This document shows, one piece after another, positions 41,180 through 61,021 of a stretch of 64,000 nt of DNA; position 1 is the first letter of the stretch, and each line of letters begins with the position of its first letter. Made by a program: the position numbers and the translations under genes. Source of the DNA: Bacteroidota bacterium (GTDB lineage: Bacteria > Bacteroidota > Bacteroidia > NS11-12g > UBA955); the NCBI GenBank assembly GCA_016787485.1, contig JAEUUL010000028.1, forward strand, positions 71,490 through 135,489, read 5' to 3'. Below the pieces are notes generated by a model, which had not been told where the DNA came from, did not search any database, and saw only the letters and a program-made list of their open reading frames with translations.

Positions 41180-41333
41180 CCGCAAATACGCTGCGATGTG
41201 ACCTGATTGATTTGTAACATGGAATCTGTGAAGAGAGGAGAAGTGGGGGGCAGAGGAAAAATAATGGGATTTCAGTGGAACTGACCCCATAAATTCGAGA
41301 TTCTCAAATCCATTTATTAAATTGCCGTAACTT

Positions 41334-42179: not shown

Positions 42180-42180
42180 C

Positions 42181-42612
42181 ATGACAACCCCGCAGAACCC
42201 AACCCTCAAGGCCATTCTCGAACTCTGTGCCTTCCTGGATCAGCGCCCCGAAACCTTTACCAAAGAATGGATTGACGACCCCCACAACAGTATTGGCGAA
42301 TTTGCCCTCTGCTATGATTATGCTGATGTCAATTTTAAAAACAAAGTTGTCTTTGGCGTTTATAAAATTCCATTGAATCTGGACAATAAAAAGCTGCTTG
42401 AAGCATACCGAAAACTTGAAAATCGCAAATTAAACCATAACTTTACCCAGGTAAAAGATCAAATGATGATTGTTATGGAACACAAAGGCCTGCAAATTTT
42501 GCAACATTTAGAGATGTATAATGGAATTGCGGATGACTACAACGCGATTGCAGAATTAATCAATGAAATCAAAGTATGGCCGAGGATCATGAGCAATAAA
42601 TACGGAATTTAA
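42181..42612 (+). CDS. Hypothetical protein paired with the GIY-YIG-like gene
   Basis: This 143-residue protein matches no family I know. It is soluble, with acidic and aromatic patches (GEFALCYDYADVNFKNKVVFG) and a helical C-terminal half. Its ATG follows the previous stop by 1 nt, and the DUF2779 gene starts 13 nt after it, so three genes probably share a transcript. Confidence 0.6.
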   Translation: MTTPQNPTLKAILELCAFLDQRPETFTKEWIDDPHNSIGEFALCYDYADVNFKNKVVFGVYKIPLNLDNKKLLEAYRKLENRKLNHNFTQVKDQMMIVMEHKGLQILQHLEMYNGIADDYNAIAELINEIKVWPRIMSNKYGI

Positions 42613-42625
42613 TTCTATCCATTTA

Positions 42626-44512
42626 ATGCCCCCCACCCTCTCCAAATCCGACTTTCAGCTGGCCGGCAGTTGTGCGAGAAAACTGGTCTACAAGAAGCAG
42701 GGCTACCCCACCGCCAATGACACCAATGAATACATGCAGATGCTTGCCGAAGGCGGCTATGTGGTGGGCAAAATGGCCACCATGCTGTATCCTGAAGGCA
42801 TTGAGATTGAAGGCGATACCCGCAGTTGCGTGGAACAAACAAGGCAATGGCTGGAACAGGACGAAGTGGTGCTGTTCGAAGCAGCCATCATGCACGGGCA
42901 GCGGCTCATCCGCATTGATATCCTGAAAAAGCAGGGCAACAAAGTAGAACTGATCGAGGTGAAGGCCAAGTCGCACGATTCTGAGGACGAAAAACAGGAG
43001 GCGAAACTGAAGGAGTATATCCGCGATGTGGCCTACCAGTACTATGTTTTAACCGGTGCGTATCCTGATTTTAAGGTGAAACCCTTCCTGCTGATGCCGG
43101 ATAAGAGCAAACGCACCACCATCGATGCGCTGGCCGGCTGGTTTACCATGCAGAAGGACCACGAAAACACGGAAACGGAAGAACTGCCCGCCCAGCAGCA
43201 CCCGCGCTTTCACCGCCCCGTGGTAAAGTTCGTCCATGATGAACACCCGGACCGCGACCGCTTCCTGCAGCAATTACGGGATGAGGGCATTTTGTCGGCC
43301 CTGGACGTCAGTGACAGCGTGCAGGACATGCTGCCGGAAATCGAAAGTGAATCAACGCGGCTGCTGCGCATCCTGAATGAGGGCATCAGCGGCGACGACT
43401 ATGTGCTCTGCAAGGCCTGCAAGGCTTGTGAGTTCTATACCCCGGGCCTGGAGAAGAACGGCTACCATGAATGTTGGGGCGACACGGGCTTTACCACACC
43501 GCACATTTTCGACCTGTACTACGGCGGCTCTGTCAGCAGCGAAACACATACCAGTTACCTGGATGAGCTGATCGCTGAGAAAAAGACGTCCCTGTTCGAT
43601 ATCGACACCAAACGACTGTGCAAGAAGAATGGCGAAATCGGCACGCGGGCAGCGCGGCAGTTGCTGCAGATTGAGCAAACCCAAAATAACGGCGAGTGGT
43701 TCAGCGAAGAACTGGCAGGGGAAATAAACAGTCTGAAATACCCGCTGCATTTTATCGATTTCGAGACCTACACCGGCGCCATTCCTTTCCACCGGAACAT
43801 GCGCCCCTACGAACTGCTGGCCTTCCAGTGGAGCTGCCACACCATTGATGAACCGGGGGCCGCACCCAGGCACGCGGAATGGATCCACACCGGGCCCATG
43901 TTCCCCGATGGCAATGCCTTCCCCAATTTCGAATTCGCCCGTTCGCTGATGCGGCACATTGGTGATACCGGCACGCCCCTGATGTGGGCCACCCACGAGA
44001 ACACCACCCTGCGTGCCATCCTGAACCAGATGCCCGTTTATAAAGAAACAGACAAGGAACTGGAAGCCTGGTTGACCCGCATCACCAAAGATACCAAGCG
44101 TCCCGGCCGCTTTGTGGATATGAACCAGATGACGCTGAAGCATTACTTCCACCCCTACATGCAGGGCCGCACGTCCATCAAGAAGGTACTGCCCGCCGTG
44201 TGGAGCCACCACCCCTACCTGCACGAGATCCTCTGGTTCCGGGAATACGCGCCCGAACCCTTCCTGCAGGGCATCATTGATCCCTACGATACCTTGACCG
44301 GCGGGCAGCACCTGGGCAGCGACGAGGACGACGTGGTGAAGGGCGGCACCGATGCCATGCGCGCCTACTACCGCATCCGATTCGACAATACGCTATCACC
44401 CGAACACAAAACTGAACTCCGCAACCAATTGCTGCAATACTGTCGCCTGGATACCATGGCCATGGTGATTATTTGGGAGCATTGGAGGAATATTAATAAT
44501 GATAGAAATTGA
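42626..44512 (+). CDS. DUF2779 protein: Cas4-like Fe-S nuclease plus DnaQ-like exonuclease
   Basis: The 628-residue protein joins two nuclease folds. The N-terminal half is a RecB/Cas4-like PD-(D/E)XK domain with D98 (RIDIL) and E111-V-K113 (LIEVKAK), and cysteines C16, C262, C265/C268 and C283 placed like the Fe-S ligands of AddB/Cas4. The C-terminal half is a DEDD exonuclease: FIDFETY (D378, E380) and YCRLDTMAM (Y605, D609). It should process DNA or RNA ends. Location suggests defence. Its stop overlaps the start of a decayed DUF2130 gene. Confidence 0.88.
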   Translation: MPPTLSKSDFQLAGSCARKLVYKKQGYPTANDTNEYMQMLAEGGYVVGKMATMLYPEGIEIEGDTRSCVEQTRQWLEQDEVVLFEAAIMHGQRLIRIDILKKQGNKVELIEVKAKSHDSEDEKQEAKLKEYIRDVAYQYYVLTGAYPDFKVKPFLLMPDKSKRTTIDALAGWFTMQKDHENTETEELPAQQHPRFHRPVVKFVHDEHPDRDRFLQQLRDEGILSALDVSDSVQDMLPEIESESTRLLRILNEGISGDDYVLCKACKACEFYTPGLEKNGYHECWGDTGFTTPHIFDLYYGGSVSSETHTSYLDELIAEKKTSLFDIDTKRLCKKNGEIGTRAARQLLQIEQTQNNGEWFSEELAGEINSLKYPLHFIDFETYTGAIPFHRNMRPYELLAFQWSCHTIDEPGAAPRHAEWIHTGPMFPDGNAFPNFEFARSLMRHIGDTGTPLMWATHENTTLRAILNQMPVYKETDKELEAWLTRITKDTKRPGRFVDMNQMTLKHYFHPYMQGRTSIKKVLPAVWSHHPYLHEILWFREYAPEPFLQGIIDPYDTLTGGQHLGSDEDDVVKGGTDAMRAYYRIRFDNTLSPEHKTELRNQLLQYCRLDTMAMVIIWEHWRNINNDRN

Positions 44513-44928
44513 GCAACACAAACAAAATCAATTGCCCGAATTGCGATACAGTAATTGATGTAAATGACATATTTGCCCAAAAGCAGGATGCAGAAATTCA
44601 GAATAAATTCAACTTAGAAATAGCCGAATGTAAGAATTAATTGAAAGCCAGGGAAATCCGAATTGCAAAACTAAAAGTACTATTGGTGGTGAAAAGTTTA
44701 CAGCGAACTGAAACCGTGTTGATGGAATTGTAGAAGTATTTACTTATTTGCAAGACGGTCTTCAAAAAGAAAAAAAACATTGAAAAGATAGAATGAAAAG
44801 GAAAAGCAAATACTTTGTGTAGTAAAATAAATGTTGTACTCTAAGGCAGTATCAAAGGAATAACCGGTGCCAGATTGCCGGAAATTAAGGCATTGGAAGC
44901 TGGTAGCGAAGAAGAATGGGAGGAGTAG
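44509..44928 (+). pseudogene. Decayed DUF2130 gene
   Basis: An N-terminal piece (SNTNKINCPNCDTVIDVND...) ends in a stop at 44638-44640. Downstream, fragments in other frames recall the W.KR...K part, and the final 28 codons read GSIKGITGARLPEIKALEAG...WEE, the known DUF2130 C-terminus, ending at 44928. The intact family is ~400 aa; only ~420 nt remain, with stops, frame shifts and a large deletion. The first codon (TTG) overlaps the stop of the DUF2779 gene. Confidence 0.75.
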
Positions 44929-44934
44929 GTGTTT

Positions 44935-45522
44935 CTATTTTTTTCCTTTAGAAAAGTTTAAATGGCTGGGCATTAATTCTAATTCTGTTTTTTTGGCAAT
45001 ACACATAACTTCTTCGAGAATTTTTTCTATTTCCTCTTTTTGATACGAAGTAGAAACTCTATGGTATTCTTTTCTCATTTTTTCTTTACTTAAATGCTGC
45101 CCATTTCTTATGTCAGCTGTTAATTTTTTAATATTTGGTAAACATTCTAAATTTTCTTTAATCAAGTTATAAAAAGATATTTTATGATCTAAAGTAATAT
45201 ATTTAATATTACTGTCAATCAATTTGAAATTCATTAATTGTTCTTTTATTCCTGAAGATATTATATAAACCTCATTGTTTTCAATTGCAATAGAGTCAAT
45301 TTTAGAAAATAATATTGTCTTACTTGGGTTGATCCGAATTTTAATATTGAGAATCAACTGGTCATATATTGATTTTAATGAATTCTTTAAATTAGTATCA
45401 TTTTTACAAAGCTTAGCATAAAGTCTAGGTGTGTAATAAATACCAATATCATTATAAGCCCTCTCCTGAGTTCTTAGTCTTGAAATAAAAGATTTTTTTA
45501 ATTGATCTGTATGTATTTTCAT
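44935..45522 (-). CDS. Hypothetical AT-rich protein, last of the minus-strand RM run
   Basis: The 195-residue protein is Lys- and Ile-rich, soluble and mostly helical; no family is recognised. It is separated from the glycosylase-like gene by 49 nt and ends 6 nt before the DUF2130 remnant. Strong AT bias in codon use suggests recent acquisition. It may belong to the type I RM operon by position alone. Confidence 0.6.
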   Translation of the reverse strand: MKIHTDQLKKSFISRLRTQERAYNDIGIYYTPRLYAKLCKNDTNLKNSLKSIYDQLILNIKIRINPSKTILFSKIDSIAIENNEVYIISSGIKEQLMNFKLIDSNIKYITLDHKISFYNLIKENLECLPNIKKLTADIRNGQHLSKEKMRKEYHRVSTSYQKEEIEKILEEVMCIAKKTELELMPSHLNFSKGKK

Positions 45523-45571
45523 ATTTTACGTATTTCTTCAATGGGATTTCCGCTTTTTAAATAATGATTAA

Positions 45572-46234
45572 TTAAGTTTTTCTTATATAGTATCCTAAAG
45601 CCTGTATGTCTATTCTAATATCCATTTCTTCTGTTAGACAAGCCTTAATAACACTGTACTTATCAGCAAACTTATGGGCGACATTCAGATCCGAAATATA
45701 ACGATATGGTCTTCCTCTGAAATCAATATCTTTTTGGGGTAAACCAATTCTGACAGAAGAAATTATTTCCGTCTTTTCTGCCGATGCAAACGCCTTGAGT
45801 GCAATAGAATTTGAGGGAGCATAAGCATTCCCGATTGCCCGAAACAATTCTTTTAAAACAATAGTTGGCCCACTGAAATATTCATTTTTTGCTATGTTTT
45901 TCACTCCTCGAATCAGAAGTCCGGCTTCAACCCCATATTGACTATTTCCCACTGTAAGATCCAGGCCAAAGCCATTAAAATACCAGGTACAAAAATTACC
46001 CTGTTCAGTTGTCCTGTGGGTATAAATATCCTGATGGCAATCTGACCAGTAATACATTTCTGTTTCCACAATTTGGTATCGATGCTCACCGACATCAATA
46101 ACCGAATTCTGCATTATATATAATGCCAATTCCCGAATAAATCCAGGTAAATCATCCTTGTCAGACTGATAACAATCAAGTGCTTTGGATGCTAATCTGG
46201 AAAGAAAATCTGAATCAAACATAGCAACAATCAC
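45572..46234 (-). CDS. Alkyladenine DNA glycosylase (Aag/MPG)-like protein
   Basis: The 220-residue protein matches the Aag fold by pattern: IVETEMYY (E59 fits the catalytic Glu of IVETEAY), a following His (H73), FNGFGLDLTVGN, GLLIRG (~106-110), SGPTIVLKELFRAIG, and a late RIGLPQKDIDF...PYRYI. Aag removes alkylated or deaminated purines. The GTG at 46234 overlaps the hsdR stop (GTGA); an ATG at 46222 is an alternative. Identity is modest by eye and no assay-relevant residues beyond these can be judged. Repair or modified-base surveillance is inferred. Confidence 0.6.
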   Translation of the reverse strand: MIVAMFDSDFLSRLASKALDCYQSDKDDLPGFIRELALYIMQNSVIDVGEHRYQIVETEMYYWSDCHQDIYTHRTTEQGNFCTWYFNGFGLDLTVGNSQYGVEAGLLIRGVKNIAKNEYFSGPTIVLKELFRAIGNAYAPSNSIALKAFASAEKTEIISSVRIGLPQKDIDFRGRPYRYISDLNVAHKFADKYSVIKACLTEEMDIRIDIQALGYYIRKT

Positions 46235-49200
46235 CCCCTCAAAATCCTCTTCAATGTATCCTGCATGGCCAGTTTAAAGGCATCATCGGTGCTCAGCATG
46301 CGGTACAGGTCCAGCTCATTGCGCCGTTGTTTGGACATCACCTCATCAAATATTTTGTTGAAAGCTATTTCCCTGTTCTGGCTGTCCTGGTTTTCGGCAT
46401 ACTTGGTTTTATAGTCGGGGTGCTCCTGAATGCGCTGGGCCAGACTGATGAACTTGACCCGCTGCTCCTCAGGTGTGGCTTCCCAGCCCTGAAACCAGCG
46501 TTCATTGAAACTCCGGATGATTACATCCAGGGGATCTTCCTCTTTACCACCTGTATGTGCGCCGCGCGGATTGGGATTCTGGGGGTCCAGCTCCGTGGGA
46601 GAATCATCCAGGCCTATGCGGGTATTCAGTTTAACCCTTTCCAGTCCATAGGTTGATAAATCCACAGAATCCAGCAATTCATCCAGGGCATCTTTATCCG
46701 GGTCTTTCACAATCAACTTGGGAATCAGAAACTTCAGGAACCAGAACAATTTTTCCCAGTCCACCATTTCAAATTGCATGATGGAGGCCATTTGCCCATA
46801 TATCTTGACAAACTGCTTGGCCTTAATTTTATAATCCGCTTTCTCTTTATCCGTTAACTCAAAGCCACTGTTAAACCGGTCTGCCGCTACGTCTATGATG
46901 GGGCTCAGCTGCTGCGCATCCGCACCTGTGAAATACTTTTCATTGAACTCTTCCACTTCCGACCATTCATAAACACCGGGGCTGTCCAGCGAATCCTTCA
47001 GTTCATGCAGCACATTGATATCTGTGGCTCCACTGAGTGATGTGGCTGCATAAAACGGATCAAATGCAGCTTTGATATCCTCCACACTGTTGTAGAAATC
47101 CAGAATAAACAGGTCTTCTGTTTTCTTGCCCAGTTCATTGGCGCTTCGGTTCAGCCTTGATAATGCCTGCACGGCCTTTACCCCCTGCAGCTTCTTGTCC
47201 ACATACATGGCCGTGAGCTTGGGTTGGTCAAATCCGGTGAGATATTTATCTGCCACCACCAGCATGCGGTATTCATCCATGTCAAAATACCGTGCGATTT
47301 TATCTGCGATATACCCCGGATCTCCCGGCTTTGCAGTATCAAGGCCCGGAGGAAAATCATTCAGGGAGTCCTCTGTCTGTTCAATTCCTTTGATTCTTCT
47401 TGTCCCTGTGAATGCAATCGCTATCCTGAACGGGTTTCCGCGCTTTGCGAGCAGGTCTTTTAGGGCAAAAAAGTACTTGATGGCAGAATCAATACTCTGG
47501 GCAGCCACAATGGCCTTGGCTTTCCCTTTCAGCCGTTTGGTATTTACTATTTTTGTGATAAAGTGATCCAGCATCACCTCTGCCTTATTTTCAATAGGCT
47601 GCTGCTCACTTTCCACATATCTCCGCAGTGCTTTTTGCGCTTTTGCCGTATCAAACAGCGGGTTGTCTTCTATTGATTTTTCAATCTCGTAATAACTTTT
47701 GTATGTGGTATAGTTGGCCAGCACATCAAGGATAAAACCTTCCTCAATGGCCTGTTTCATGGAATACAAATGGAAAGGATGAAATGTACCATCCGCATGT
47801 TTGACCCCAAACTTTTCCAAGGTCGCATTTTTTGGAGTGGCGGTAAAGGCCAGATAAGATGCATTGCCCCTCATTTTGCGTGACTGCATGGTATTCAGAA
47901 TCAATTCCTCTGCGTCCGGTTCTTCCTCTTCGCCGGCATTTGCATTGCCCATGGCTTCATTCATTTTACCTGCGTCTATACCTGACTGGCTGCTGTGGGC
48001 TTCGTCAATAATCACAGCAAACCGCTTTTCACTCAGATCTGAAATGCCATCCACTATAAATGGGAACTTTTGAATGGTGGTAATGATGATTTTCTTTCCG
48101 GTCTCCAGGGCTTGTTTCAGGTCGGTTGAGGAATAAGCAGGAGCAATGATGTTCTTAATCTCCGAAAACTCCCGGATGTTTTCCCGCAGTTGCTTATCCA
48201 GCAGTTTGCGGTCGGTCACTACGATCACAGAGTCAAACAAGGGATTATGCAAGCCTTTACTGCCGGGCAATCCCTCACGTTCCGGATAGACTTCTATCAG
48301 CTGGTACGCTGCCCAGGTAATGGAATTGGATTTGCCGGAACCCGCTGAGTGCTGTATCAGATAAAATTGACCCACACCATTGGCTGATGCATCTGCAATG
48401 AGTTTGCGCACCACATCCAACTGGTGGTATCTGGGAAAATACAGGTTGCGGGTATTCAGCGGGTCGGTTTCCTTGCCATCAAAACGCACAAAGTGCTGGA
48501 TGATATTGGCCACGCTTTCGCGGGTAAATACCTGCTCCCAGATATAGCTGGTTTTGTGGCCGAACGGATTGGGCGGATTCCCTTTGCCGAAATTATGACC
48601 CAGATTGAACGGTAGAAAAAATGTATTGGCACCTTTCAGCTTGGTGGTCATATAGGCTTCATCAGTATCTACCGTAAAATGCACCATACAGCGGCCAAAT
48701 TGCAGCAGGGGTTGGGTGTGGTCGCGTTTAAAACGGTACTGATTTTGTCCGTGCACCCTGGCATTCTGGCCGGTCCAGTGATTTTTTAGTTCCATGGTGG
48801 CGAAGGGTATGCCATTGATGAACATCACCATATCCATTTCCTCACGCGGATTATCCACCGAATAACGCAACTGACGGGAAACGCTGAAGCGATTACTGTC
48901 AAAATCGTTGATTACCTTTTCGCTGCTGCTGGCCAGTGGCAGCGGATAAATGAGGGTGAAATGTGCATCATCCACATCCAGACCTTTACGCAACAGTCGG
49001 AGCAGACCGTATTTTTTAATCATCCGATCAAGCCGTTCTGTTATTTTATGTTTCCAGTCGGCTTGCTTCTGCAGTTTGGCCAGTTCAGCCTGCTGGGTGG
49101 CTTCCAGAAATTCAAACAGTTGAAATTCGTCCAAGGCATTTCGGGCATTGAAATCATCCGGAGAGCCCATGAAATAGCCGATGCCGGAACGATACAATTC

Positions 49201-49317
49201 CCTGCGATCGGCTACTGTACCCGCCTGAATTTGCCCGCGTAATTCTTCTGTGGTATAGCCGGTAAGGTTTTTCTCTATGGAGGCTTCTAATGCCTGTTCG
49301 TTGGTTTGGCTGGTCAT
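46231..49317 (-). CDS. hsdR: Type I restriction endonuclease subunit R
   Basis: The 1028-residue protein is full length for HsdR. An N-terminal PD-(D/E)XK nuclease shows DMVMFINGIPFATMELKNHW (D...E-L-K). The SF2 translocase has Walker A SAGSGKSNS, DEAH (VIIDEAHSSQSG), TATP and the motif VI ALSRLNRSA. R uses ATP to translocate DNA when the site is unmethylated, then cuts. It is separated from hsdS by two accessory genes and reads into the glycosylase-like gene by overlap. Confidence 0.96.
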   Translation of the reverse strand: MTSQTNEQALEASIEKNLTGYTTEELRGQIQAGTVADRRELYRSGIGYFMGSPDDFNARNALDEFQLFEFLEATQQAELAKLQKQADWKHKITERLDRMIKKYGLLRLLRKGLDVDDAHFTLIYPLPLASSSEKVINDFDSNRFSVSRQLRYSVDNPREEMDMVMFINGIPFATMELKNHWTGQNARVHGQNQYRFKRDHTQPLLQFGRCMVHFTVDTDEAYMTTKLKGANTFFLPFNLGHNFGKGNPPNPFGHKTSYIWEQVFTRESVANIIQHFVRFDGKETDPLNTRNLYFPRYHQLDVVRKLIADASANGVGQFYLIQHSAGSGKSNSITWAAYQLIEVYPEREGLPGSKGLHNPLFDSVIVVTDRKLLDKQLRENIREFSEIKNIIAPAYSSTDLKQALETGKKIIITTIQKFPFIVDGISDLSEKRFAVIIDEAHSSQSGIDAGKMNEAMGNANAGEEEEPDAEELILNTMQSRKMRGNASYLAFTATPKNATLEKFGVKHADGTFHPFHLYSMKQAIEEGFILDVLANYTTYKSYYEIEKSIEDNPLFDTAKAQKALRRYVESEQQPIENKAEVMLDHFITKIVNTKRLKGKAKAIVAAQSIDSAIKYFFALKDLLAKRGNPFRIAIAFTGTRRIKGIEQTEDSLNDFPPGLDTAKPGDPGYIADKIARYFDMDEYRMLVVADKYLTGFDQPKLTAMYVDKKLQGVKAVQALSRLNRSANELGKKTEDLFILDFYNSVEDIKAAFDPFYAATSLSGATDINVLHELKDSLDSPGVYEWSEVEEFNEKYFTGADAQQLSPIIDVAADRFNSGFELTDKEKADYKIKAKQFVKIYGQMASIMQFEMVDWEKLFWFLKFLIPKLIVKDPDKDALDELLDSVDLSTYGLERVKLNTRIGLDDSPTELDPQNPNPRGAHTGGKEEDPLDVIIRSFNERWFQGWEATPEEQRVKFISLAQRIQEHPDYKTKYAENQDSQNREIAFNKIFDEVMSKQRRNELDLYRMLSTDDAFKLAMQDTLKRILRG

Positions 49318-49326
49318 AATTCTATT

Positions 49327-49905
49327 CTAAAGGTGACCGATCAAAGGATTAAACTCATAATTCAATGGCTTTTCAAGTACCTTCAGATAATTCCTGAATT
49401 CAGGCTCAAACTGCCAGATTTTAATATTGACGATTAAATCTATCTCATCTGCCCAGTGAATTAACTGCAGGCCACTTTCACTTTTGGGATAATACCCAAA
49501 ATGCACAAACAATCTTCCAACCACATCTGTCTCACTTTTTCCAATATACAAGGTTGGTGAATGAAGCGGCGGATTTATCTTTACAGCAGGCGTGGGTTTT
49601 GAACCCTGACTTTGTTTGTAGCGGCTAAAAGTATCAAAAACTCTCGTACCTGTGGCATTTTCATATTCAAACACATACAATGCAGGCAAATTCCTATTGG
49701 TTATTTTTTTATTGATAGCATTATCAAAAGTGGCAAATAATGCCTCATGACCCGGCACGGGTGTCTTTTCGAATGATTGCACTTTCAATCCATTTATCTC
49801 TGTGTAAGCTGCATTGAATGAGTCGGAGGCGAGTTTCTCCATGGCAGAAATACCACCTTTTATTTCCTTAATGATTCCACCGGGTAATTCCCTTTTATTT
49901 GTCAT
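49327..49905 (-). CDS. GIY-YIG nuclease-like protein between hsdS and hsdR
   Basis: The 192-residue protein has ALYVFEYEN (75-83), then a long loop and LYIGKSETDVVGRLF (119-133, R131), with a C-terminal LEKPLNYEFNP (E178). This order, aromatic strand, YIG, Arg, late Glu and NP, fits GIY-YIG nucleases, with an unusually long insertion. It starts 3 nt after the upstream gene and ends 9 nt before hsdR, so it belongs to the RM operon. Activity is inferred only. Confidence 0.55.
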   Translation of the reverse strand: MTNKRELPGGIIKEIKGGISAMEKLASDSFNAAYTEINGLKVQSFEKTPVPGHEALFATFDNAINKKITNRNLPALYVFEYENATGTRVFDTFSRYKQSQGSKPTPAVKINPPLHSPTLYIGKSETDVVGRLFVHFGYYPKSESGLQLIHWADEIDLIVNIKIWQFEPEFRNYLKVLEKPLNYEFNPLIGHL

Positions 49906-49908
49906 AAA

Positions 49909-50460
49909 TTACCCAATTTGCTTCCAGCCTTCTTTCTTAAAAACATAACCTTCCCATTCAAAATCACTTTGATAACCGAAGATAAAGAGCAAATTCTCTA
50001 ATTCCGAAATTTGGTCACCGTGCCGTGAACTTTTAATGATGGTATGTATAAAATCCATTACAGTGTCAGTAGGCTTATATCCGATAGGACCCTGCGGGTA
50101 AGTAACAATAACTTTTAGATCAGCGCAAACCGTCAACATTTTACACGTTTCTGTGTACAAGTGTTTATCAAACTTATTCTCATGTTCAAAAGCAACTGAT
50201 ATGCCTGTAATTCCAAAGGTATTGGCAACTACACCATCAACAATATCTTCTTTTTTGTACAATAGTGCATCAATAAAATAATAGTCCTTCGGATAACATT
50301 CCAGCTTTAATTCCCTTGCTACATCGAAGATTATAGTTCCATTATCTCCTTTGATGAAATTAGTAAATTCTGTAGGATTTTGCCATTTCTTTTTTAATTC
50401 TTCCTTGTGTTCATTTACTGCTTTTTTCCAAGCATTTAAAAATTTTATAGCTGTATTCAT
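49909..50460 (-). CDS. Putative PD-(D/E)XK-like accessory protein
   Basis: No named family is recognised for this 183-residue protein. The middle holds DYYFIDALLY ... GISVAFEHENKFDKHLYTETCKML..ADLKVIVTYP, a beta-strand/acidic pattern reminiscent of small restriction-enzyme-fold proteins (D, E-x-E, later K). It lies 22 nt after hsdS and 3 nt before the GIY-YIG-like gene. An accessory role in the RM locus is inferred from position. Confidence 0.55.
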   Translation of the reverse strand: MNTAIKFLNAWKKAVNEHKEELKKKWQNPTEFTNFIKGDNGTIIFDVARELKLECYPKDYYFIDALLYKKEDIVDGVVANTFGITGISVAFEHENKFDKHLYTETCKMLTVCADLKVIVTYPQGPIGYKPTDTVMDFIHTIIKSSRHGDQISELENLLFIFGYQSDFEWEGYVFKKEGWKQIG

Positions 50461-50482
50461 TTTGATAAATATTATTTAACTT

Positions 50483-51814
50483 TTAACAAACCTTTACCTT
50501 TCCCGTTACCACCTCATTGATCAGTGTGGCTTTGTATTCTTTGAGTTTTTCGATTTCTTGCTTTTTTATATTTAAGGTTGAATATATTTTATCAGAAATA
50601 TTTAATATATATTCACAAATATTAATTATTTGTTCTTTGGGTGGGACAGGTAATTTTACACTTGCCAACCTATCCATTGTAAGCTTCGGTTGTGCTGCAC
50701 CAGAAATGTAAATTGTATAATCAACGCTGCTCAGCAATTCTGACCAAAATTCGAAACCAGGTAACATTGGCTTTAAAATATGTGCATGATTATTCACCCA
50801 ATACTTACCCTGTGCAATGAAGGCCAACGGAGTCGATTTACTCAATAAATTAGCTCCATCTTCTGCAATTAAGATTAAAGTATCGTCAAATAAATAATCA
50901 TTTACATAGTCAATTATTCCACTTGCCCCATAATAAGGATATTCACCTTGCATTTTTTCTCTTTCTTCACCACTCAATGGAACTCTTTTCGTATTTAGAA
51001 ATTTGAATAGTCTTCTCAAATGGATCACCTCCCACCCCTCCGGTATCTCCCCAATCCACTCCACACCGCTGTCTTTCAATTTGGCGTTGGGGTTGAGGCC
51101 GCGGGTAACGGCGCGTTGGATGAGGATCTGCCGGCGTTCCTTCAGCAGTTCTATCTGCTTCTGCTTAATGGCAATGGCCTTGTCAATCAGCGCGGTTTTG
51201 CGGTCCAGAAAGGCAGCAATGGCGGTTTGTTCGGGGAGGGGTGGGATCCAAATACTAGCCCTTTTAAGCTGTGGCCAATAGAGATTTCTTTGAATCGTTC
51301 CAACTCCTTTAGAGGAAATCAAATAATAACTAACCATCGATGGATCGCGAAATATATAATTCGCGTAAATTGGGTCTATTTCATTAGATAATGCCAGTAC
51401 AATATATGCTGGACTTACTATACCTTCAAACTTCGAAACACCAACAGACCCTCGCCATGCTTGTTGATTATTGAGAACAAGATTACCAGGTTTGACTAAT
51501 TGATATTTCGACAAATCCTCGCTTGTTGCATTGGTTCTTTTCTCATTTACATCCGAGAACTTGATTACTCCTTTATCAAGGTATACTGATAACAACTCTT
51601 TGTCTTCACATTCTGAAGTAGAGACTAGTTTAGCAATTGAAAAAAGAGGTTTAACATTCCAACGTCTTGGAATTTGGCCAACCCACTCTATTCCAGAATC
51701 TTTGTATTCAGAATACCTTCTCATTGTCTGAATCACGGATTTTTCTGGATTTTCGGATTGCACGGATTGGGTACCTGTTTGCTTTTGTGTTTTATGTGCT
51801 TCCGTGTTGTTCAT
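50483..51814 (-). CDS. hsdS: Type I restriction-modification specificity subunit S
   Basis: The 443-residue protein has two target-recognition domains, each opening with the S-subunit phrase KDSGIEWVGQIP...W and KDSGVEWIGEIPEGW, and coiled-coil linkers (PPLPEQTAIAAFLDRKTALIDKAI). It sets the sequence bound by the M2S complex. The ATG at 51814 overlaps the GxxExxY stop, but residues 1-30 are encoded by a transposon-like terminal repeat; Met31 (51724) is probably the ancestral start, lying 2 nt outside that repeat. Confidence 0.95.
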   Translation of the reverse strand: MNNTEAHKTQKQTGTQSVQSENPEKSVIQTMRRYSEYKDSGIEWVGQIPRRWNVKPLFSIAKLVSTSECEDKELLSVYLDKGVIKFSDVNEKRTNATSEDLSKYQLVKPGNLVLNNQQAWRGSVGVSKFEGIVSPAYIVLALSNEIDPIYANYIFRDPSMVSYYLISSKGVGTIQRNLYWPQLKRASIWIPPLPEQTAIAAFLDRKTALIDKAIAIKQKQIELLKERRQILIQRAVTRGLNPNAKLKDSGVEWIGEIPEGWEVIHLRRLFKFLNTKRVPLSGEEREKMQGEYPYYGASGIIDYVNDYLFDDTLILIAEDGANLLSKSTPLAFIAQGKYWVNNHAHILKPMLPGFEFWSELLSSVDYTIYISGAAQPKLTMDRLASVKLPVPPKEQIINICEYILNISDKIYSTLNIKKQEIEKLKEYKATLINEVVTGKVKVC

Positions 51815-52268
51815 AATACAAGCCTTTTAAAGGTTAAAGATTTACTACCGAAATTAATTAACAGACCCACAGCAATTTTATAGGCTTTGAGATAATTCAA
51901 TGCCTGGGCCATGTGCACATCTTCCAGTTGAATGATGGCCTTAAGTTCTACCAGCACTTTGCCTTCTACTACAAAATCTGCCCTCCGGGTTCCTATAGGT
52001 TCTTCAAGCTCTTTGTAAAAAATATCCTGCTCAATTTCACGGGCGAAATCCAATCCCGCTTTACGCATTTCATAGGCCAGTGCCCGCTGGTATATCACTT
52101 CCTGAAAACCGTTGCCTAAAAACTTATGCACCTCAAACGAAGCACCGATAATCTTTTCCGTTATATCCCTGTATTTTAATTCAACTTCGGCCATCAGCTT
52201 GTAACCATTAAATATTCCGTCTTCATAATCTGTGTAATCCTTCCATCCGTATCATCCGTGATTCAGAC
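51726..52268. mobile_element. Terminal-inverted-repeat element carrying the GxxExxY gene
   Basis: Perfect 15-nt inverted repeats, GTCTGAATCACGGAT (51726-51740) and ATCCGTGATTCAGAC (52254-52268), bound a 543-bp unit; similarity continues inward imperfectly for ~35 nt (GGATTGCACGGATT versus GGATTACACAGATT). The right repeat supplies the hsdM stop codon (TGA at 52263-52265) and the left lies just inside hsdS. The unit has no transposase, so it would be non-autonomous. Confidence 0.7.
51811..52194 (-). CDS. GxxExxY protein (PD-(D/E)XK-like)
   Basis: The 127-residue protein contains GFQEVIY (G-x-x-E-x-x-Y) at ~29-35 and the nuclease-like RRADFVVEGKVLVELKA (D..E-L-K), the features of the TIGR04256 family. 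These small proteins are often multi-copy in Bacteroidota; function is unproven. It sits inside the inverted-repeat element between hsdM and hsdS, and its stop overlaps the hsdS ATG (ATGA). Confidence 0.93.
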   Translation of the reverse strand: MAEVELKYRDITEKIIGASFEVHKFLGNGFQEVIYQRALAYEMRKAGLDFAREIEQDIFYKELEEPIGTRRADFVVEGKVLVELKAIIQLEDVHMAQALNYLKAYKIAVGLLINFGSKSLTFKRLVL

Positions 52269-54629
52269 TATTTGTAATATTTCCTTTATCAACCCATCAC
52301 TTTCCTGTTCCAGTGCCACAATGTCCGCAGTTACCTCTTCCAGACTGCGCAGGGGCTTGTGGCGGTAGAAGTATTTGTTGAAACTGATTTCATAGCCGAT
52401 TTTGGTGGCGTCCATATTGATCCAGGCTTCTGCCACATGGGGCTTTACTTCCCGCAGATAATAGGCATGAATGTTTTCTTTTGAGGGTACGTTTTCCGTG
52501 TCCCGCAGCTCGCTTTCGCTTTCGTAGGTGAGGTATTCGCTGTTGCTGCCGGTGGGGTAATAGCCATAATCAGGCAGTTCGGCCTCGCTGCAATCCAGGC
52601 GGGTCAGCAGTTTCTCCAGCTTGTCACCGCTGAGCTTCACGGTGCTCTTCAAAACCTTTTCTGCATTTTCATTGTACCAGCTCACGGCATTCAGTATGGC
52701 ATTCCTTTCTGCTGCACTCAGTTTCACCTTCATGCTTTTCAGGGCGGCATCCACTTGTTCGCTGAATACATTGAAATGGCTATGCTCTTCACTACCCAAA
52801 GCCTTCATGAGATCTTGGGCCACCTTCAGCAACTCCAGTTGTTTGTTCCAGGTATTTGCATCCTCCAAAGCGCGGCTCTGTTTGGCATTCAGATTCAGTT
52901 CCTGTTTTTCACACCATTCCTGAATGTCTTTTGCAATCTGTTTCAGGTCGGTGTACACGCGGTCGCCATAGGTTTCATACGCCCAGGCCATGGGTTCACG
53001 CAGGCTCTTGTCAAAGCGCAGCTCTGAAATCCGTTCTTCGGTGAACTGTGCTTTCAGGCGTTTGGGCCTTTCGATGGTGACTTTGTAATACCCGAAATCG
53101 GCATTGTCAAACACCTGTGCCGCTATGCCCAGTTCTTCCCTGGTTTCAGGATGTATTTCGCGCTTCACCTCCTGCATGGTTGAATATACCGATACGATTT
53201 CACGGATATGTTCAGGGGCGAATTCACAATTTTTATTGCCCAGGTTTTTGCGCAGCTTGCGGAACAAAAGGCCCGCATCAATCAATTGTACTTTCCCCTT
53301 GCGGTGCGCAGCCTTATTGTTGCTCAGCACCCAGATGTAAGTGGTGATGCCGGTGTTATAAAACAGGTTGTTCGGCAACTGAATGATGGCTTCCAGCAGA
53401 TCGTTTTCAATGATGTAACGCCGGATATTGCTCTCACCCCCGCCTGCATCGCCTGTAAACAGGCTGCTGCCGTTGTGTACGGAAGCGATGCGCGTGCCCA
53501 GTGGACTCTGGCTCAGGGGCTTCATCTTGCTCACCATTTCCATCAGAAACAGCAACTGCCCGTCAGACGAACGCGGGGTTGCATCCGCCTCATCTTCCAC
53601 ACCCCAGTAGTCTTTCAGCCGCACCACAAAGCGCGGGTCTATGACATCTTTCCCATCCTTAATATATTTTAATTCGCTGGCCCAGGATTTTCCGTAGGGT
53701 GGATTGGAAAGCATGAAGTCAAAGGTGGTGCCTGCAAATTCATCTGTGGACAGGGTAGAACCCACGCGGATGTTCTCGGGGTCGTTGCCCTTGATCATCA
53801 TGTCAGACTTGCAGATGGCATAGGTCTCATCATTGATTTCCTTGCCATACAGATATACATCACCCTTCGCACGTATTACGCCCTCCTCATCCTTTATAAA
53901 ATTCTGTGATTCGGTAAGCATGCCTCCACTGCCGCAGGCCGGGTCGTAGATGGTCATGACAGGGGGCAGCTGGTCTTTCACCGGCTCAAAAATGATGTGG
54001 GTCATCAGGTCGATTACCTCGCGCGGTGTGAAGTGTTCCCCGGCTTCCTCGTTGTTTTCTTCATTGAACTTCCTGATAAGCTCTTCGAACACATAGCCCA
54101 TGCCCAGGTTGCTCAGGGCCGGCAGCTTTCTGCCCTCGGGGTCTGCCTTTTCAAAGGGCGTGAGGTTGATGTATGGCGAAGTAAATTTCTCCAGAACATC
54201 CAGCAGCACATCTTTGGAGGCCATGTGCCTTACCTGGCTTTTCAGTTTGAATTTCTCAATAATCTCCTTGACGTTGGCGCTGTAGCCATTCAGGTAATCC
54301 TCAAAATTGGCCTGCAGTATCTGTTGGTTGTTGGTGGCAGTATCTCGCAGTCGCTGCAGTGTCCAGGGACTGGTATTGTAGAACACGTAACCCGAAGCCT
54401 GACGGAGACCATTTTCATCCCATTCGGTAAATTTGGCCTCATCCCGCTGGAAGGCCAGCTCTTCCATCACCGCTTCCTTGGTGGGCTCCAGCAGGGCATC
54501 CAGGCGGCGCAGCACCACCATTGGCAGGATCACATCGCGGTACTTGCCGCGCACATACACATCGCGCAGGCAGTCATCGGCAATGGACCAGATAAAGGAT
54601 ACAAGTTTGTTATGGACGGCGTTGTTCAT
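52263..54629 (-). CDS. hsdM: Type I restriction-modification DNA methyltransferase subunit M
   Basis: The 788-residue protein has an N-terminal helical domain (HNKLVSFIWSIADDCLR), the N6-adenine methyltransferase motifs DPACGSGGM (motif I, SAM) and SNPPYGKSW (motif IV), and a long C-terminal extension. With HsdS it methylates adenine in the bipartite target. The final codons lie inside a mobile element repeat, which provides the stop. An unrelated AT-rich gene ends 23 nt upstream. Confidence 0.97.
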   Translation of the reverse strand: MNNAVHNKLVSFIWSIADDCLRDVYVRGKYRDVILPMVVLRRLDALLEPTKEAVMEELAFQRDEAKFTEWDENGLRQASGYVFYNTSPWTLQRLRDTATNNQQILQANFEDYLNGYSANVKEIIEKFKLKSQVRHMASKDVLLDVLEKFTSPYINLTPFEKADPEGRKLPALSNLGMGYVFEELIRKFNEENNEEAGEHFTPREVIDLMTHIIFEPVKDQLPPVMTIYDPACGSGGMLTESQNFIKDEEGVIRAKGDVYLYGKEINDETYAICKSDMMIKGNDPENIRVGSTLSTDEFAGTTFDFMLSNPPYGKSWASELKYIKDGKDVIDPRFVVRLKDYWGVEDEADATPRSSDGQLLFLMEMVSKMKPLSQSPLGTRIASVHNGSSLFTGDAGGGESNIRRYIIENDLLEAIIQLPNNLFYNTGITTYIWVLSNNKAAHRKGKVQLIDAGLLFRKLRKNLGNKNCEFAPEHIREIVSVYSTMQEVKREIHPETREELGIAAQVFDNADFGYYKVTIERPKRLKAQFTEERISELRFDKSLREPMAWAYETYGDRVYTDLKQIAKDIQEWCEKQELNLNAKQSRALEDANTWNKQLELLKVAQDLMKALGSEEHSHFNVFSEQVDAALKSMKVKLSAAERNAILNAVSWYNENAEKVLKSTVKLSGDKLEKLLTRLDCSEAELPDYGYYPTGSNSEYLTYESESELRDTENVPSKENIHAYYLREVKPHVAEAWINMDATKIGYEISFNKYFYRHKPLRSLEEVTADIVALEQESDGLIKEILQIV

Positions 54630-56689: not shown

Positions 56690-56777
56690 GCCACAAAGCT
56701 AGGCGGGCAGACCGCAGGGTATGTGCGGAGTGGGGGGAATATCACCATATTTGAAATTTGATTTAATTTGCTTCTCT

Positions 56778-57536
56778 ATGACCGCCCTGTTTGTCCTTAT
56801 CATAGTCCTTGCTCTGCTGGCCGCATACTTGGGCTATAAACTCTGGCGCACCCGGGTTGTACTGATGAAAAGACTCAGGGAACTGGACCGGCTGAGAAGT
56901 CTGGCAAACCAGAAAGTCGAACAACTGGAACTGGAAACCACCAAATTCGAACTGAATCCGCATTTTTTCCGTAACAGTCTCAGCACCCTTCAGAATACCA
57001 TCAACAAAAGCCTTATGTCGGTGGAGAAGTTGAGTGAAGTACTGGAATATGCACTGTATGACTCTCAGTCCAACTTTGTGAGTCTTGCGCGTGAACTGGA
57101 GTTTGCCCAAAAATTCACGGAGTACAATGAAACACGGACAAGTGCCCGGTTCCTTGTTCAGTTCAATTCACATATAGACCCAAATGACCCTTTCAAGGAT
57201 ACGAATCTGATTGCCCCGATGATTACTGCCTATTTTATAGAGAATGCCTTCAAACACAGCGACCTAAAAAGTACGGATGGCTTTGTACGGGTGCAAGCCA
57301 GCCTTGAGGATGGCTTGTTTACCTTTGAGGTGCAGAATAAAGCTAGGGAAGCCGGGGAAACCAAGCTGAAAGGGGGGCTTGGAAAGGAGAGTATGCGAAA
57401 ACGACTGATTACCTACTATAAGGACCGGTTTAACGTGTCCTACCAGTATGACGAAAATTCCCGGATACACACAGCAACTTTAACCCTGAATCTAAACCAT
57501 GAAAAAATTGCGATGCATTCTGCTGGACGAGGATGA
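56778..57536 (+). CDS. LytS-like sensor histidine kinase (minimal)
   Basis: The 252-residue protein has one N-terminal transmembrane helix (~1-25) and no sensory domain. It has the His_kinase box KFELNPHFFRNSLSTLQNTIN with the expected His, then a HATPase-like region (APMITAYFIENAFKHS; GGLGKESMRKRL). The ATG at 56778 follows TTAATTTG by 7 nt. Its 3' end overlaps the LytTR regulator by 38 nt. It probably phosphorylates that partner; the trigger is unknown. Confidence 0.88.
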   Translation: MTALFVLIIVLALLAAYLGYKLWRTRVVLMKRLRELDRLRSLANQKVEQLELETTKFELNPHFFRNSLSTLQNTINKSLMSVEKLSEVLEYALYDSQSNFVSLARELEFAQKFTEYNETRTSARFLVQFNSHIDPNDPFKDTNLIAPMITAYFIENAFKHSDLKSTDGFVRVQASLEDGLFTFEVQNKAREAGETKLKGGLGKESMRKRLITYYKDRFNVSYQYDENSRIHTATLTLNLNHEKIAMHSAGRG

Positions 57537-58212
57537 AGACCAGCTGAGTTTACTGAAGTCCAAACTGTCGGGTCTACCTGAAGTAGAAATTGCTGCTTCA
57601 TTTACGGATTCCCGGGAATTCCTGAAGAGCATTTCCATGCTTCCATCTTATGATTTGCTGATTACGGATATCGACATGCCGGGTTTTGACGGTTTCGAGG
57701 TGGCACGTAAAATTGATCCACAACCTGTTTTATTTGTAACTGGGTATCCTGAAAAAGGCATTGATTATAGTGAAGTTCCCAATGCTATTGGGGCAATTAA
57801 AAAACCGGTCAGACTGGAAATGCTAACCCGCCTCCTTAAGCAAATTACACCAACTCAAAATACAGTCGTGCTAAAAACAGACCGCGGAAAGGCACATGAA
57901 ATAGAAATACAAACTATTGCTTACATTAAAACCGCCGATAAAGAACCACGCGATAAAGAAATACATTTCCGGGATGGCCATATGATAACTGCAAAAACCA
58001 TTAAACTGGATGACCTGATTTCTCATATCGCATCCCCCCATGTGCTTAAGGCAAATAATTCAGAAGCCTTGCACACGAATCATATTGTTGCCCGCTTATC
58101 TACCTACACGGTTGGTGTGGCTTGTGGTAGTAAAATCATAGAAGTAGAAGTTCAGCCAGAAGCGTTGAATAAAATTAAGAAAGTAAAGCCACATTTGTTT
58201 CATTCCAATTGA
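57499..58212 (+). CDS. LytTR-family response regulator
   Basis: The 237-residue protein has a receiver (~1-118) with the phospho-acceptor Asp in LLITDIDMPGFDGF, VTGYPEK and IKKPVR, and a LytTR DNA-binding domain (~125-230: VVLKTDRGKAHEIEIQTIAYIKT...). It lies 77 nt upstream of the viperin gene on the same strand, so it may regulate that operon. LytTR sites are short direct repeats; none could be confirmed by eye in the gap. Confidence 0.92.
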   Translation: MKKLRCILLDEDEDQLSLLKSKLSGLPEVEIAASFTDSREFLKSISMLPSYDLLITDIDMPGFDGFEVARKIDPQPVLFVTGYPEKGIDYSEVPNAIGAIKKPVRLEMLTRLLKQITPTQNTVVLKTDRGKAHEIEIQTIAYIKTADKEPRDKEIHFRDGHMITAKTIKLDDLISHIASPHVLKANNSEALHTNHIVARLSTYTVGVACGSKIIEVEVQPEALNKIKKVKPHLFHSN

Positions 58213-58289
58213 AGCAGAATTGATTACATAAAACAGCCATTGGATTCCAGAGGCTGATTGCCAGGCATTCCGGGCAGTTCCTTTGAATC

Positions 58290-59690
58290 ATGTTTAACTA
58301 CATGAAATTCAAAGAACTAACGGTGAATTATCACCTCACAAAAGCTTGCAACATGCGTTGCAAGTTCTGCTACGCCACCTTTACAGATTTGGGTTGCGTA
58401 AAGCATGATTATGAAAAATCTGTTCAACTTATCCATGCCCTGGCTCGGGCCGGATTTGGCAAAATCACCTTTGCAGGCGGCGAACCCACACTGGTCAGGG
58501 AGTTGCCTGCACTTGTAAAACTCGCCAAATCACTGGGAATGACTACTTGTGTTGTCACCAATGGCAGCCGGCTTCTGAACGATGGATTTGTGGATTTGCT
58601 GGCTCCGCATCTGGACTGGCTTGCCTTATCCATAGACAGCCTTGATGAAGCCATAAATATGAAATCCGGGCGGAAACTATCCGGCGACCAGACATTGGAT
58701 GCAGATTACTTTGAAAAAGTAATAGCAGAGTACAGGAAATATGGCGTAAAGATTAAAATCAATACGGTGGTTTCCCAATACAATGTGCATGAAGATTTAA
58801 ACGTCTTCATTTTGAGAAATAAACCCAACCGGTGGAAGGTGCTTCAGGCCACCGCAGTAGAAGGGCAAAATTCAGACCATACAGGGCAATTTGAGGTATC
58901 AGACAATGAGTTTGATGCATTCATTCAGAGGCATTACCCTGTAGAAAACCGCATCTGCACTGTACCTGAAGAAAGCAACCTGATACGCGGAAGCTACGTA
59001 ATGGTGAGCCCGGATGGCTGCTTTTTTGATAGTTCCATGGGCTATCATACATACAGCAATCCAATACTGCAAACCGGTGTGGAAGCCGCCTTACAACAAA
59101 TACATTTTGATTTTGAAAAGTTCAAACAAAGAGGCGGGATATATGATTTGAAGAAAAACCATACACTTCCGAAAGTAATCACATTTTCCGGTGAGGTTGG
59201 ATCCGGTAAAAGTTCAGCAGGAAAAATATTGGCACAACTGCTGGGTTATACCTTTCATTCACTTGGCAACAGTGCGAGAGAAAGGGCCAGGGAAATGGGA
59301 ATGGGTATTGTTGAGTTTCAGTCATACTGTCAGCAAAATCCTGAATATGACCAATACCTGGATATTGAGTTTGCTTCAAAGTGCAATGGACTGACAAACG
59401 CGGTGATAGACTTCAGGATGGGATATAAGTTTATTCCTGAAGCATTTCATGTTTTTTTAAAAGTGGGAGCTATGGAAGCTGCCAGGAGACTAAATGCAGA
59501 TATGAGAGAGGGCGAAAACACCAATACAATTGAGCAGAGAAATTTTTCATTTAAAAACCAATTTAACCAAAACTATGGAGAGGACTACACCAATGAAAAT
59601 CATTATCACCTTGTAATTGACACAGAAAAGTTTAACTCACCCTACGAAGTGGCAGTTTTCATAATCCGCAGTATAAAATCAAACCAATAA
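58290..59690 (+). CDS. Prokaryotic viperin fused to CMP-kinase-like domain
   Basis: The 466-residue protein has two parts. Residues ~5-285 are a viperin-type radical SAM enzyme: CxxxCxxC at C20, C24, C27; GGEP 63-66; KINTVVSQYNVHEDL, RWKVLQ, EGQN, then the viperin-like C-terminus (SYVMVSPDGCFF...GVEAAL...RGGIYD). It should convert CTP or another NTP to its 3'-deoxy-3',4'-didehydro form, a chain terminator for phage RNA polymerase. Residues ~295-466 resemble archaeal CMP kinase: GEVGSGKS 301-308, LGNSARERAREMGM, AVIDFRMG. Start at 58290 or Met5 (58302). Confidence 0.9.
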   Translation: MFNYMKFKELTVNYHLTKACNMRCKFCYATFTDLGCVKHDYEKSVQLIHALARAGFGKITFAGGEPTLVRELPALVKLAKSLGMTTCVVTNGSRLLNDGFVDLLAPHLDWLALSIDSLDEAINMKSGRKLSGDQTLDADYFEKVIAEYRKYGVKIKINTVVSQYNVHEDLNVFILRNKPNRWKVLQATAVEGQNSDHTGQFEVSDNEFDAFIQRHYPVENRICTVPEESNLIRGSYVMVSPDGCFFDSSMGYHTYSNPILQTGVEAALQQIHFDFEKFKQRGGIYDLKKNHTLPKVITFSGEVGSGKSSAGKILAQLLGYTFHSLGNSARERAREMGMGIVEFQSYCQQNPEYDQYLDIEFASKCNGLTNAVIDFRMGYKFIPEAFHVFLKVGAMEAARRLNADMREGENTNTIEQRNFSFKNQFNQNYGEDYTNENHYHLVIDTEKFNSPYEVAVFIIRSIKSNQ

Positions 59691-59712
59691 AATACAGTAT
59701 CCAATAAAAAAC

Positions 59713-60132
59713 ATGAAAAAAACAATATTCATTGACATGGATGGAGTCCTCGTTCAAAAAGGAGAGTTGAATTTTCAGGAACACAAACTAAAGAAAGGTT
59801 TCTTTCTTGATAAAGATCCTGTAAGGGGCGCAGTTGAATCATTCCAAATATTATCCGAAATGCACGATTGCTATATAGCTAGCACACCTGTATGGAACAA
59901 TGTATACTGCTGGTCAGAAAAGCGAATCTGGGTGGAAAAGCACCTTGGAAAGGCTGCCGAAAAGAGACTTATCCTTTTGCATCATAAAAACTTGCTGAAC
60001 GGGGATTATCTGGTGGATGATACAAAAGACCATGGGGTTCAAATGTTTAAAGGAGAGCATATCCATTTTGGAATAGGGCACTTCCCGGATTGGCCTTCTG
60101 TAATAGAGTATCTAATGAGCAAACAGGGCTGA
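59713..60132 (+). CDS. 5'(3')-deoxyribonucleotidase-like HAD protein (NT5C type)
   Basis: The 139-residue protein has the HAD catalytic IFIDMDGVL (D8, D10), ASTPVWNNV, the W..EKHLG....RLILLHHK segment and GDYLVDDTKDHG, matching short NT5C-type nucleotidases. Such enzymes dephosphorylate (deoxy)nucleoside monophosphates. It starts 22 nt after the viperin fusion gene and shares its AT-rich style, so the two form an operon. It may act on ddh-nucleotide monophosphates or alter the nucleotide pool, but this is inference. Confidence 0.85.
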   Translation: MKKTIFIDMDGVLVQKGELNFQEHKLKKGFFLDKDPVRGAVESFQILSEMHDCYIASTPVWNNVYCWSEKRIWVEKHLGKAAEKRLILLHHKNLLNGDYLVDDTKDHGVQMFKGEHIHFGIGHFPDWPSVIEYLMSKQG

Positions 60133-60349: not shown

Positions 60350-60646
60350 ATGGAAAGAAGAATTTCACTTTATCGTAAGACCGAGCACTTCATGCTGAGA
60401 CAATGGGAACGGCAGGTATCGGAAAAAGTCCTTCGGAGGATATTGTTCCGTATCGTTCCGGTGTCCGGTTGCAGATTGCTGGTTATCCGAAGGGAAGTGC
60501 TGTCAAGGATAGATCCGGGAAACGGAGATAAGGAGCTCATTATCAAAACAGATGGTGACCAGTTGATTACCTGCTTTTACTGTGAGTTTGCTGAATACAG
60601 AACGCGGTGTCGGGAATGTAGCATACTCATCGTGCGGTGGGTATAA
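60350..60646 (+). CDS. Hypothetical DUF4258-like small protein (98 aa)
   Basis: The 98-residue protein contains TEHFMLRQWERQVSEKVLRRIL, resembling the H...R...R.(I/V)S...(V/L)...(I/L) start of DUF4258/RelE-like small domains. It ends with a Cys-rich stretch (CFYCEFAEYRTRCREC). Such proteins can be toxins or orphan domains; no antitoxin-like partner is convincing. It starts 2 nt after the 40-residue ORF. Confidence 0.5.
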   Translation: MERRISLYRKTEHFMLRQWERQVSEKVLRRILFRIVPVSGCRLLVIRREVLSRIDPGNGDKELIIKTDGDQLITCFYCEFAEYRTRCRECSILIVRWV

Positions 60647-60737: not shown

Positions 60738-60812
60738 TATGAGTAAAAAAGGATGCGGAGGCTGGCCCAGTACCACAGGCAAGCCCTCAGGCGGCGGACG
60801 TTGCAACAACTA
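60738..60812 (+). CDS. Small Gly-rich peptide, 24 aa
   Basis: ATG-initiated ORF encoding MSKKGCGGWPSTTGKPSGGG followed by RCNN. The composition (Gly, Ser, Pro, Lys) is not random. No family is confirmed. It lies between the DUF4258-like gene and the 47-residue ORF. Confidence 0.4.
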
Positions 60813-60877
60813 AGCTTGAAAAAGAGTGTTCACGGGAAATTGCGTTCCCACATGTCCCACCGTTCAAACAAATAACC

Positions 60878-61021
60878 ATGTCAAAAGGAAAAATCAAACC
60901 CAGCGACAACAGCGCGAACCAACAGAACCTCAATAAAGGAACGCCGGGCACAAACCGGCAGTATGACCAAAACCAGGGGAACCGTGGTAAGCAGCTGAAT
61001 CCGAATACGAAGAAAGCTTAA
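60878..61021 (+). CDS. Small Asn/Gln-rich peptide, 47 aa
   Basis: A 47-residue ORF starts MSKGKIKPSDNSANQQNLNK; it is strongly polar (Asn, Gln, Gly, Lys) and lacks hydrophobic segments, so it is likely disordered. It is followed after 5 nt by a strong terminator, which supports expression. Its start resembles that of the 24-residue peptide (MSK-KG/GK). Confidence 0.5.
   Translation: MSKGKIKPSDNSANQQNLNKGTPGTNRQYDQNQGNRGKQLNPNTKKA

Follow-up and report, generated by a model that had tools for sequence, protein, structure and literature searches.

A viperin fused to a nucleotide kinase lies, in the window (the whole 64,000-nucleotide stretch of Bacteroidota DNA that we analysed), directly behind a two-component pair and a set of direct repeats and just ahead of a nucleotidase gene. 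We consider it fairly probable that these genes form a prokaryotic viperin module that a signal induces, made up, as proposed below, of histidine kinase and response regulator, repeats, viperin–kinase and an NT5C-type nucleotidase. At the level of sequence we establish which families the enzymes belong to and that they keep the conserved residues, as well as the recurrence of the gene set and the repeat. Viperins remove water from the ribose of NTPs to give 3'-deoxy-3',4'-didehydro-NTPs (ddhNTPs), terminators of viral RNA chains, and in animals viperin is switched on by interferon. A 2021 study by Bernheim, as cited in PMC11291487, reportedly showed antiphage activity for viperins of the pVip family. 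The locus makes two questions testable: the control of bacterial viperins, through a specific regulator and its candidate binding site, and the survival of a cell that makes RNA chain terminators, through a nucleotidase with an assayable substrate.

The viperin–kinase fusion and its relatives

The fusion protein (58290–59690, + strand; 466 aa, with an alternative start M5 at 58302) runs from viperin through kinase in one frame with no stop between, and carries C20/C24/C27, KINTVVSQYNVHEDL, RWKVLQ and EGQN followed by GEVGSGKS at residues 301–308. Motifs and domain matches confirm what the earlier note on this DNA had observed, namely viperin and kinase in one ORF with the nucleotidase ORF starting 22 nt after it. 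The viperin radical SAM domain (58320–59147, + strand; residues 11–286, with CxxxCxxC at C20/C24/C27) matches the NCBIfam viperin equivalog NF038283 over residues 9–282, scoring 296 bits (cut-off 180), and PADLOC pVip models match the fusion protein at 1e-82 to 1e-130. The AlphaFold model of the fused protein has a mean pLDDT of 93.6 and a pTM of 0.76, and its N-terminal part superimposes in Foldseek on CTP-bound mouse viperin (6q2p) with a TM of 0.88 (target length) and 35% identity. With the equivalog cut-off passed and both the CxxxCxxC motif and the viperin fold present, the N-terminal domain is an intact viperin and its identity is firm, as the earlier note had proposed. A MoaA identity, which that note had named as the finding that would overturn its assignment, was dropped, the MoaA models scoring far under their own cut-offs.

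The C-terminal domain (59178–59669, + strand; residues 297–460) is a cytidylate-kinase-like P-loop NMP kinase domain that matches PF13189 (Cytidylate_kin2) over residues 296–447 with 49.5 bits against a cut-off of 28, and PADLOC VakA at 8e-24. The P-loop, D374-x-R376 and lid-type Arg/Glu are kept across 22 relatives, comprising fused kinases of both domain orders and adjacent kinases, so that the loss of catalytic residues considered in the earlier note did not materialize. From the Pfam match together with the P-loop and the NMP-binding and lid residues, we take this domain to be an intact Cytidylate_kin2-type NMP kinase, its base left unspecified. The (d)CMP kinase equivalog TIGR02173 reaches 51 bits, under its cut-off of 102; we therefore do not claim CMP specificity. 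Human CMPK2, whose gene adjoins the viperin gene, is a reported CTP provider for viperin and reportedly prefers CDP and UDP (PMC10150978), and a CMPK2-like kinase adjoins 15% of bacterial viperins (PMC11249213).

Searching 84,980 species genomes yielded 80 viperin loci, and the addition of plasmid, viral and sampled-genome loci brought the set to 102 viperin domains, of which Bacteroidota contribute 53. Viperin precedes kinase (VK) in 10 proteins, the window's included and all from Bacteroidota; the order is reversed (KV) in five, and in eight cases the two are adjacent genes. Because independent genomes share the fused architecture, chance and a frameshift or assembly artefact were dropped as explanations of the fusion. 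In the kinase tree, the kinases of VK proteins fall together with unfused kinases encoded downstream of viperin, and those of KV proteins with an unfused kinase encoded upstream, at moderate support; this separation suggests two separate fusions from neighbouring genes. In the viperin tree the window protein shares a starred clade with L011, L012, L021 and L024, and other VK proteins lie apart from it. L021, although of this clade, lacks a fused kinase; directly after its nucleotidase gene stands a thymidylate-kinase-like gene (3487–4092 of that locus), an apparent kinase swap in which NT5C was retained. The kinase is thus not the fixed part that had been supposed, being fused at either end, encoded by a separate neighbour or replaced by a thymidylate-kinase-like enzyme as in L021. 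That viperin and kinase are fused in both orders speaks for their direct functional coupling.

Comparison with known systems sets the fusion in context. It shares with prokaryotic viperins (pVips, NF038283) the radical SAM CxxxCxxC, the viperin motifs and a score above the equivalog cut-off, but it carries a C-terminal kinase where these have a free C-terminus, and a two-component pair adjoins it. A viperin–kinase fusion is not a new kind as such: PADLOC-DB 2.0.0 already holds PDLC02905, “Viperin-kinase fusion”, in which the same two domain families stand in one chain in the opposite order. Proteins of the L025 type align with that kinase-first model end to end at 1020 bits, whereas the window protein and other VK proteins align as two swapped pieces and are not collinear with it. 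Loci of the PDLC02905 type often have the same partners as the window, namely histidine kinase, response regulator, NT5C and the small protein SP97 described below. Like PADLOC VakA (PDLC02911) and animal CMPK2 beside RSAD2, the window pairs a nucleotide kinase with viperin; unlike them, its kinase is fused. That kinase is of the Cytidylate_kin2/archaeal (d)CMP kinase type; L021 has, as a separate partner, one that resembles thymidylate kinase. The novelty of the links to NT5C and to the two-component pair was judged against PADLOC models and the literature searched.

With the full fusion as query, the viral collection returned no relative, and with the viperin alignment as query it returned about 15 viperins, none with a fused kinase; phage records gave one distant radical SAM match only. 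Among plasmid records 46 matched, none over more than 80% of the query, and two plasmid-derived rows were left out of the alignment used for folding. Two variants were observed at individual loci: N-terminal kinase remains split from viperin (L026:5564–5960), a decayed KV fusion, and a viperin with a C-terminal TauD-type 2-oxoglutarate dioxygenase (L027:4914–6422), which lies behind the same histidine kinase and response regulator pair as the window's viperin.

A two-component pair and direct repeats before viperin

The two genes directly upstream of viperin (56721–58212), absent from the earlier note, encode a histidine kinase and a response regulator. The kinase (56721–57536, + strand; PF06580, Pfam E 6e-11) is of LytS type with one N-terminal hydrophobic segment. 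The regulator (57499–58212, + strand) combines a receiver (Pfam Response_reg, 1e-10) with a C-terminal half that by alignment is diverged and LytTR-like. We use the term LytTR-like only, since the window's regulator matches Response_reg alone and falls short of the LytTR Pfam cut-off; its homologues give weak LytTR matches, at 1e-4 in L025 (22.5 bits against a cut-off of 22.6) and at 4e-3 in L023.

Where enough upstream sequence is available, a regulator is found at 29 of 48 Bacteroidota viperins and at none of the 46 loci not assigned to Bacteroidota. Similarly, with at least 1.8 kb upstream, the histidine kinase is found at 21 of 48 and at none of the 46 others. The pair lies before viperin on the same strand or divergent from it, and at the Chryseobacterium and Kaistella viperin loci the regulator alone was detected. 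One profile search of the window's genome, which serves as our background, found 13 PF06580-type kinases, the viperin-adjacent one at 230 bits and the next at 130, and therefore a chance adjacency of about 2.7% per locus; for 21 of 48 this corresponds to a binomial value of 1e-20, which ignores the relatedness of the loci. The two-component wiring of viperin is supported by this distribution. In the literature searched, we found no paper naming viperin together with a histidine kinase and response regulator.

Between the regulator and viperin lies a putative regulator operator (58221–58275, + strand), with ATTAC at 58223, ATTCC at 58244 (21 bp on) and ATTCC at 58267 (23 bp on); the first two copies are clear and the third stands at 23 bp. 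Relatives have two to three direct repeats, spaced by about 21 and 20 bp, between regulator or histidine kinase and viperin or between the divergent genes, and a scan that assumes no motif has its maxima at lags 20 and 21. Our first test, with single fixed lags, was weak at some loci because both lags occur, and a motif-based test was cleaner. An ATT[ACG]C pair 19–22 bp apart is present at 10 of 21 same-strand loci, the window included (shuffle mean 0.15), and a TC[CA]CAAA repeat at 7 of 9 divergent loci (shuffles 0), the shuffle figures being descriptive since we derived the motifs from these very sequences. At the 71 viperins without a regulator, no ATT[ACG]C pair was found.

In L209 and L210, TTTCAT occurs three times, about 21 bp apart, before a TauD-type dioxygenase gene, the same place as the repeats of the viperin loci. 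Since these two loci combine the two-component pair and the repeats with a dioxygenase and no viperin, it seems that one enzyme can replace another within the regulatory frame. We note that each runs from histidine kinase and response regulator through a TauD-like dioxygenase, so called by its resemblance to L027, a 174-aa protein and SP97 to a GGWPS peptide (L209:5117–8123; L210:5334–8340). In common with LytS/LytTR systems, the window has a PF06580 kinase, a LytTR-like regulator and tandem direct repeats as the likely binding site; it differs from them in its diverged DNA-binding half, in viperin as the apparent target and in the triple repeat, whose spacing in the viperin loci is 21 + 20 bp.

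The nucleotidase and small downstream proteins

The gene that follows the fusion (59713–60132, + strand; 139 aa) encodes an NT5C-type HAD 5'-nucleotidase with a shortened cap. It matches PF06941 with 50 bits against a cut-off of 24.8, and its DxD, T, K and DD motifs (D8/D10, T58, K92, D102/D103) are kept in homologues, placing it in the family; its profile matches 5'(3')-deoxyribonucleotidases at E 8.5e-19. It shares the HAD core and all catalytic motifs with human cdN and mdN (PF06941), but unlike them it is viperin-linked, and relative to cdN about 38 residues are missing between the DxDGV motif and the conserved core, that is, in the cap region. This shortened cap suggests an altered specificity. 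NT5C-type enzymes act on nucleoside-analogue monophosphates.

NT5C adjoins 10 of the 102 viperins, every time with a kinase beside, and none of the 69 kinase-less ones. The nine outside the window, at 53–59% identity, comprise three VK loci (L012, L017, L018), five KV loci (L022, L025, L028, L033, L035) and L021. Among loci with enough downstream sequence, it is present at 9 of 27 kinase-linked and 0 of 69 kinase-less viperins (Fisher 3.6e-6, a value that ignores the relatedness of loci, which inflates the association). Mapped on the tree, about three independent pairs show kinase and NT5C changing in concert and none shows the opposite, a result not significant alone. A housekeeping neighbour was considered and dropped: 14 of 36 viperin genomes have NT5C, and 10 of the 16 copies are viperin-linked. 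Since the viperins it adjoins are always kinase-linked, in VK, KV and kinase-swapped (thymidylate kinase) loci alike, NT5C is by its distribution a real recurrent partner and no accidental neighbour, and the partnership suspected in the earlier note withstands the neighbourhood survey. In many VK loci, however, NT5C or SP97 is missing, which counts against the module. We found no description of the NT5C–viperin link in the PADLOC models and the literature searched.

Further downstream lies SP97 (60350–60646, + strand), a conserved 97-aa protein with family members at 13 viperin loci, the window included. Among 295 class genomes it has 10 carriers, five of them beside viperin and two in the frame of two-component pair and dioxygenase. 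No Pfam, PADLOC or PDB sequence match was found for it. Its model (pLDDT 88.5) has HigB2/RelE-type chains among its weak top structural matches (Z 4.1–5.1), tied with unrelated pantothenate kinases, and in Foldseek RelE/HigB-type toxins match it weakly at E 1.2, too little to sustain a reading of SP97 as a RelE-like toxin. With 217 nt between NT5C and SP97, the latter is only a possible member of the operon.

Two microprotein ORFs follow, both of uncertain membership in the module. The Gly-rich 24-aa one (KGCGGWPSTTGKPSGGGRCNN; 60739–60813, + strand) occurs in 7 of 149 class genomes, its copies in G442 and G511 adjoin SP97 in a locus of two-component pair and dioxygenase, and a similar peptide stands just after the distant viperin L103. 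The other, MP47 (60878–61021, + strand; 47 aa, Asn/Gly/Lys-rich, ...GNRGKQLNPN...), is conserved beside viperins L014, L024, L025, L026, L028, L033 and L041 and is fused to the kinase end in L050. It also occurs elsewhere without viperin. The family, which has a further member at L235:5597–5746, is rare (6 of 247 class genomes), with two copies in the window's genome.

Proposed mechanism, alternatives and surroundings

The locus would work as follows. A signal would lead the histidine kinase and its LytTR-like regulator to bind the tandem repeats before the viperin gene and switch the operon on, and the viperin domain, by analogy, would make a ddhNTP from a ribonucleoside triphosphate. The fused kinase may convert an NMP (perhaps a pyrimidine one) to the NDP, which host NDP kinase would turn into the NTP substrate, or it may re-phosphorylate ddhNMP. 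NT5C would dephosphorylate NMPs, with ddhNMP or competing dNMPs as the likeliest substrates, thereby limiting self-poisoning or ending the response. We infer the stimulus, the binding of the regulator, which way the kinase and nucleotidase steps run and the antiviral function; the induction step draws on gene order and repeats, ddhNTP synthesis on family identity and the later steps on family knowledge.

The earlier note had read viperin, kinase and nucleotidase as a self-contained set. Its viperin, its kinase residues and its recurrent nucleotidase are sustained, but the set is not self-contained, since comparison adds a two-component pair, a repeat before viperin and a small protein, and the kinase is not fixed. 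A constitutive module of three activities, with the pair a chance neighbour, could be argued from the abundance of LytS-type kinases in the genome (13) and from the 19 of 48 Bacteroidota viperins without the pair. We regard it as quite improbable, because the regulator adjoins 29 of 48 loci, tandem or divergent, because the histidine kinase adjoins 21 of 48 where chance would give about 2.7% per locus, and because no specific repeat precedes viperin unless a regulator is present. Nucleotide-depleting defences, for example dCTP deaminase, are an established kind, and NT5C might accordingly be an effector itself, an induced drain of dNMPs or NMPs that starves phage replication with viperin as a second arm. 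The shortened cap would suit such a role. This is nonetheless unlikely, as NT5C never stands beside a kinase-less viperin in our set and a monophosphate cycle fits better than a stand-alone poison.

We give a similarly small chance to a cassette that makes a nucleoside-type secondary metabolite or signal instead of an intracellular antiviral; viperin and kinase would build it, the nucleotidase would free the nucleoside for export and the pair would sense an outside cue. In its favour are the frame of two-component pair and SP97 that in L209 and L210 holds a TauD-type dioxygenase in place of viperin (repeats of about 21 bp), the single viperin–TauD fusion (L027), and the glycosyltransferase-like and second radical SAM genes at the viperin or viperin-like loci L090, L213 and L239. 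Some viperin-like radical SAM genes in fact lie in biosynthesis-like clusters with glycosyltransferases, which counts against an antiviral module. However, the window locus has no transporter or full biosynthetic cluster, restriction and helicase genes are nearby, and viperins of the family reportedly have tested antiphage activity (Bernheim 2021, as cited in PMC11291487). Returning to the inducible viperin module, a possible if still tentative wider reading is that Bacteroidota have in it their equivalent of the viperin that interferon induces in animals: a two-component system of its own would sense infection or nucleotide stress and, through the conserved triple repeat, would induce viperin–kinase together with a terminator-clearing nucleotidase, and the frame may carry other effectors such as the dioxygenase or the viperin–dioxygenase fusion.

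Other genes of the window are of defence type as well. The stretch 36210–54629 includes a WYL regulator, a DUF2779 protein, a helicase with Mokosh-like PADLOC matches (36210–39218) and a type I restriction system (46231–54629), with two ORFs without family (49327–50460) between its R and S genes. In other genomes, the loci L074, L090, L207, L208, L213 and L239 encode, opposite their viperin or large viperin-like radical SAM genes, a divergent protein of some 600 aa (WHYTTHGVAYLKHIL or similar), often with glycosyltransferase-like genes.
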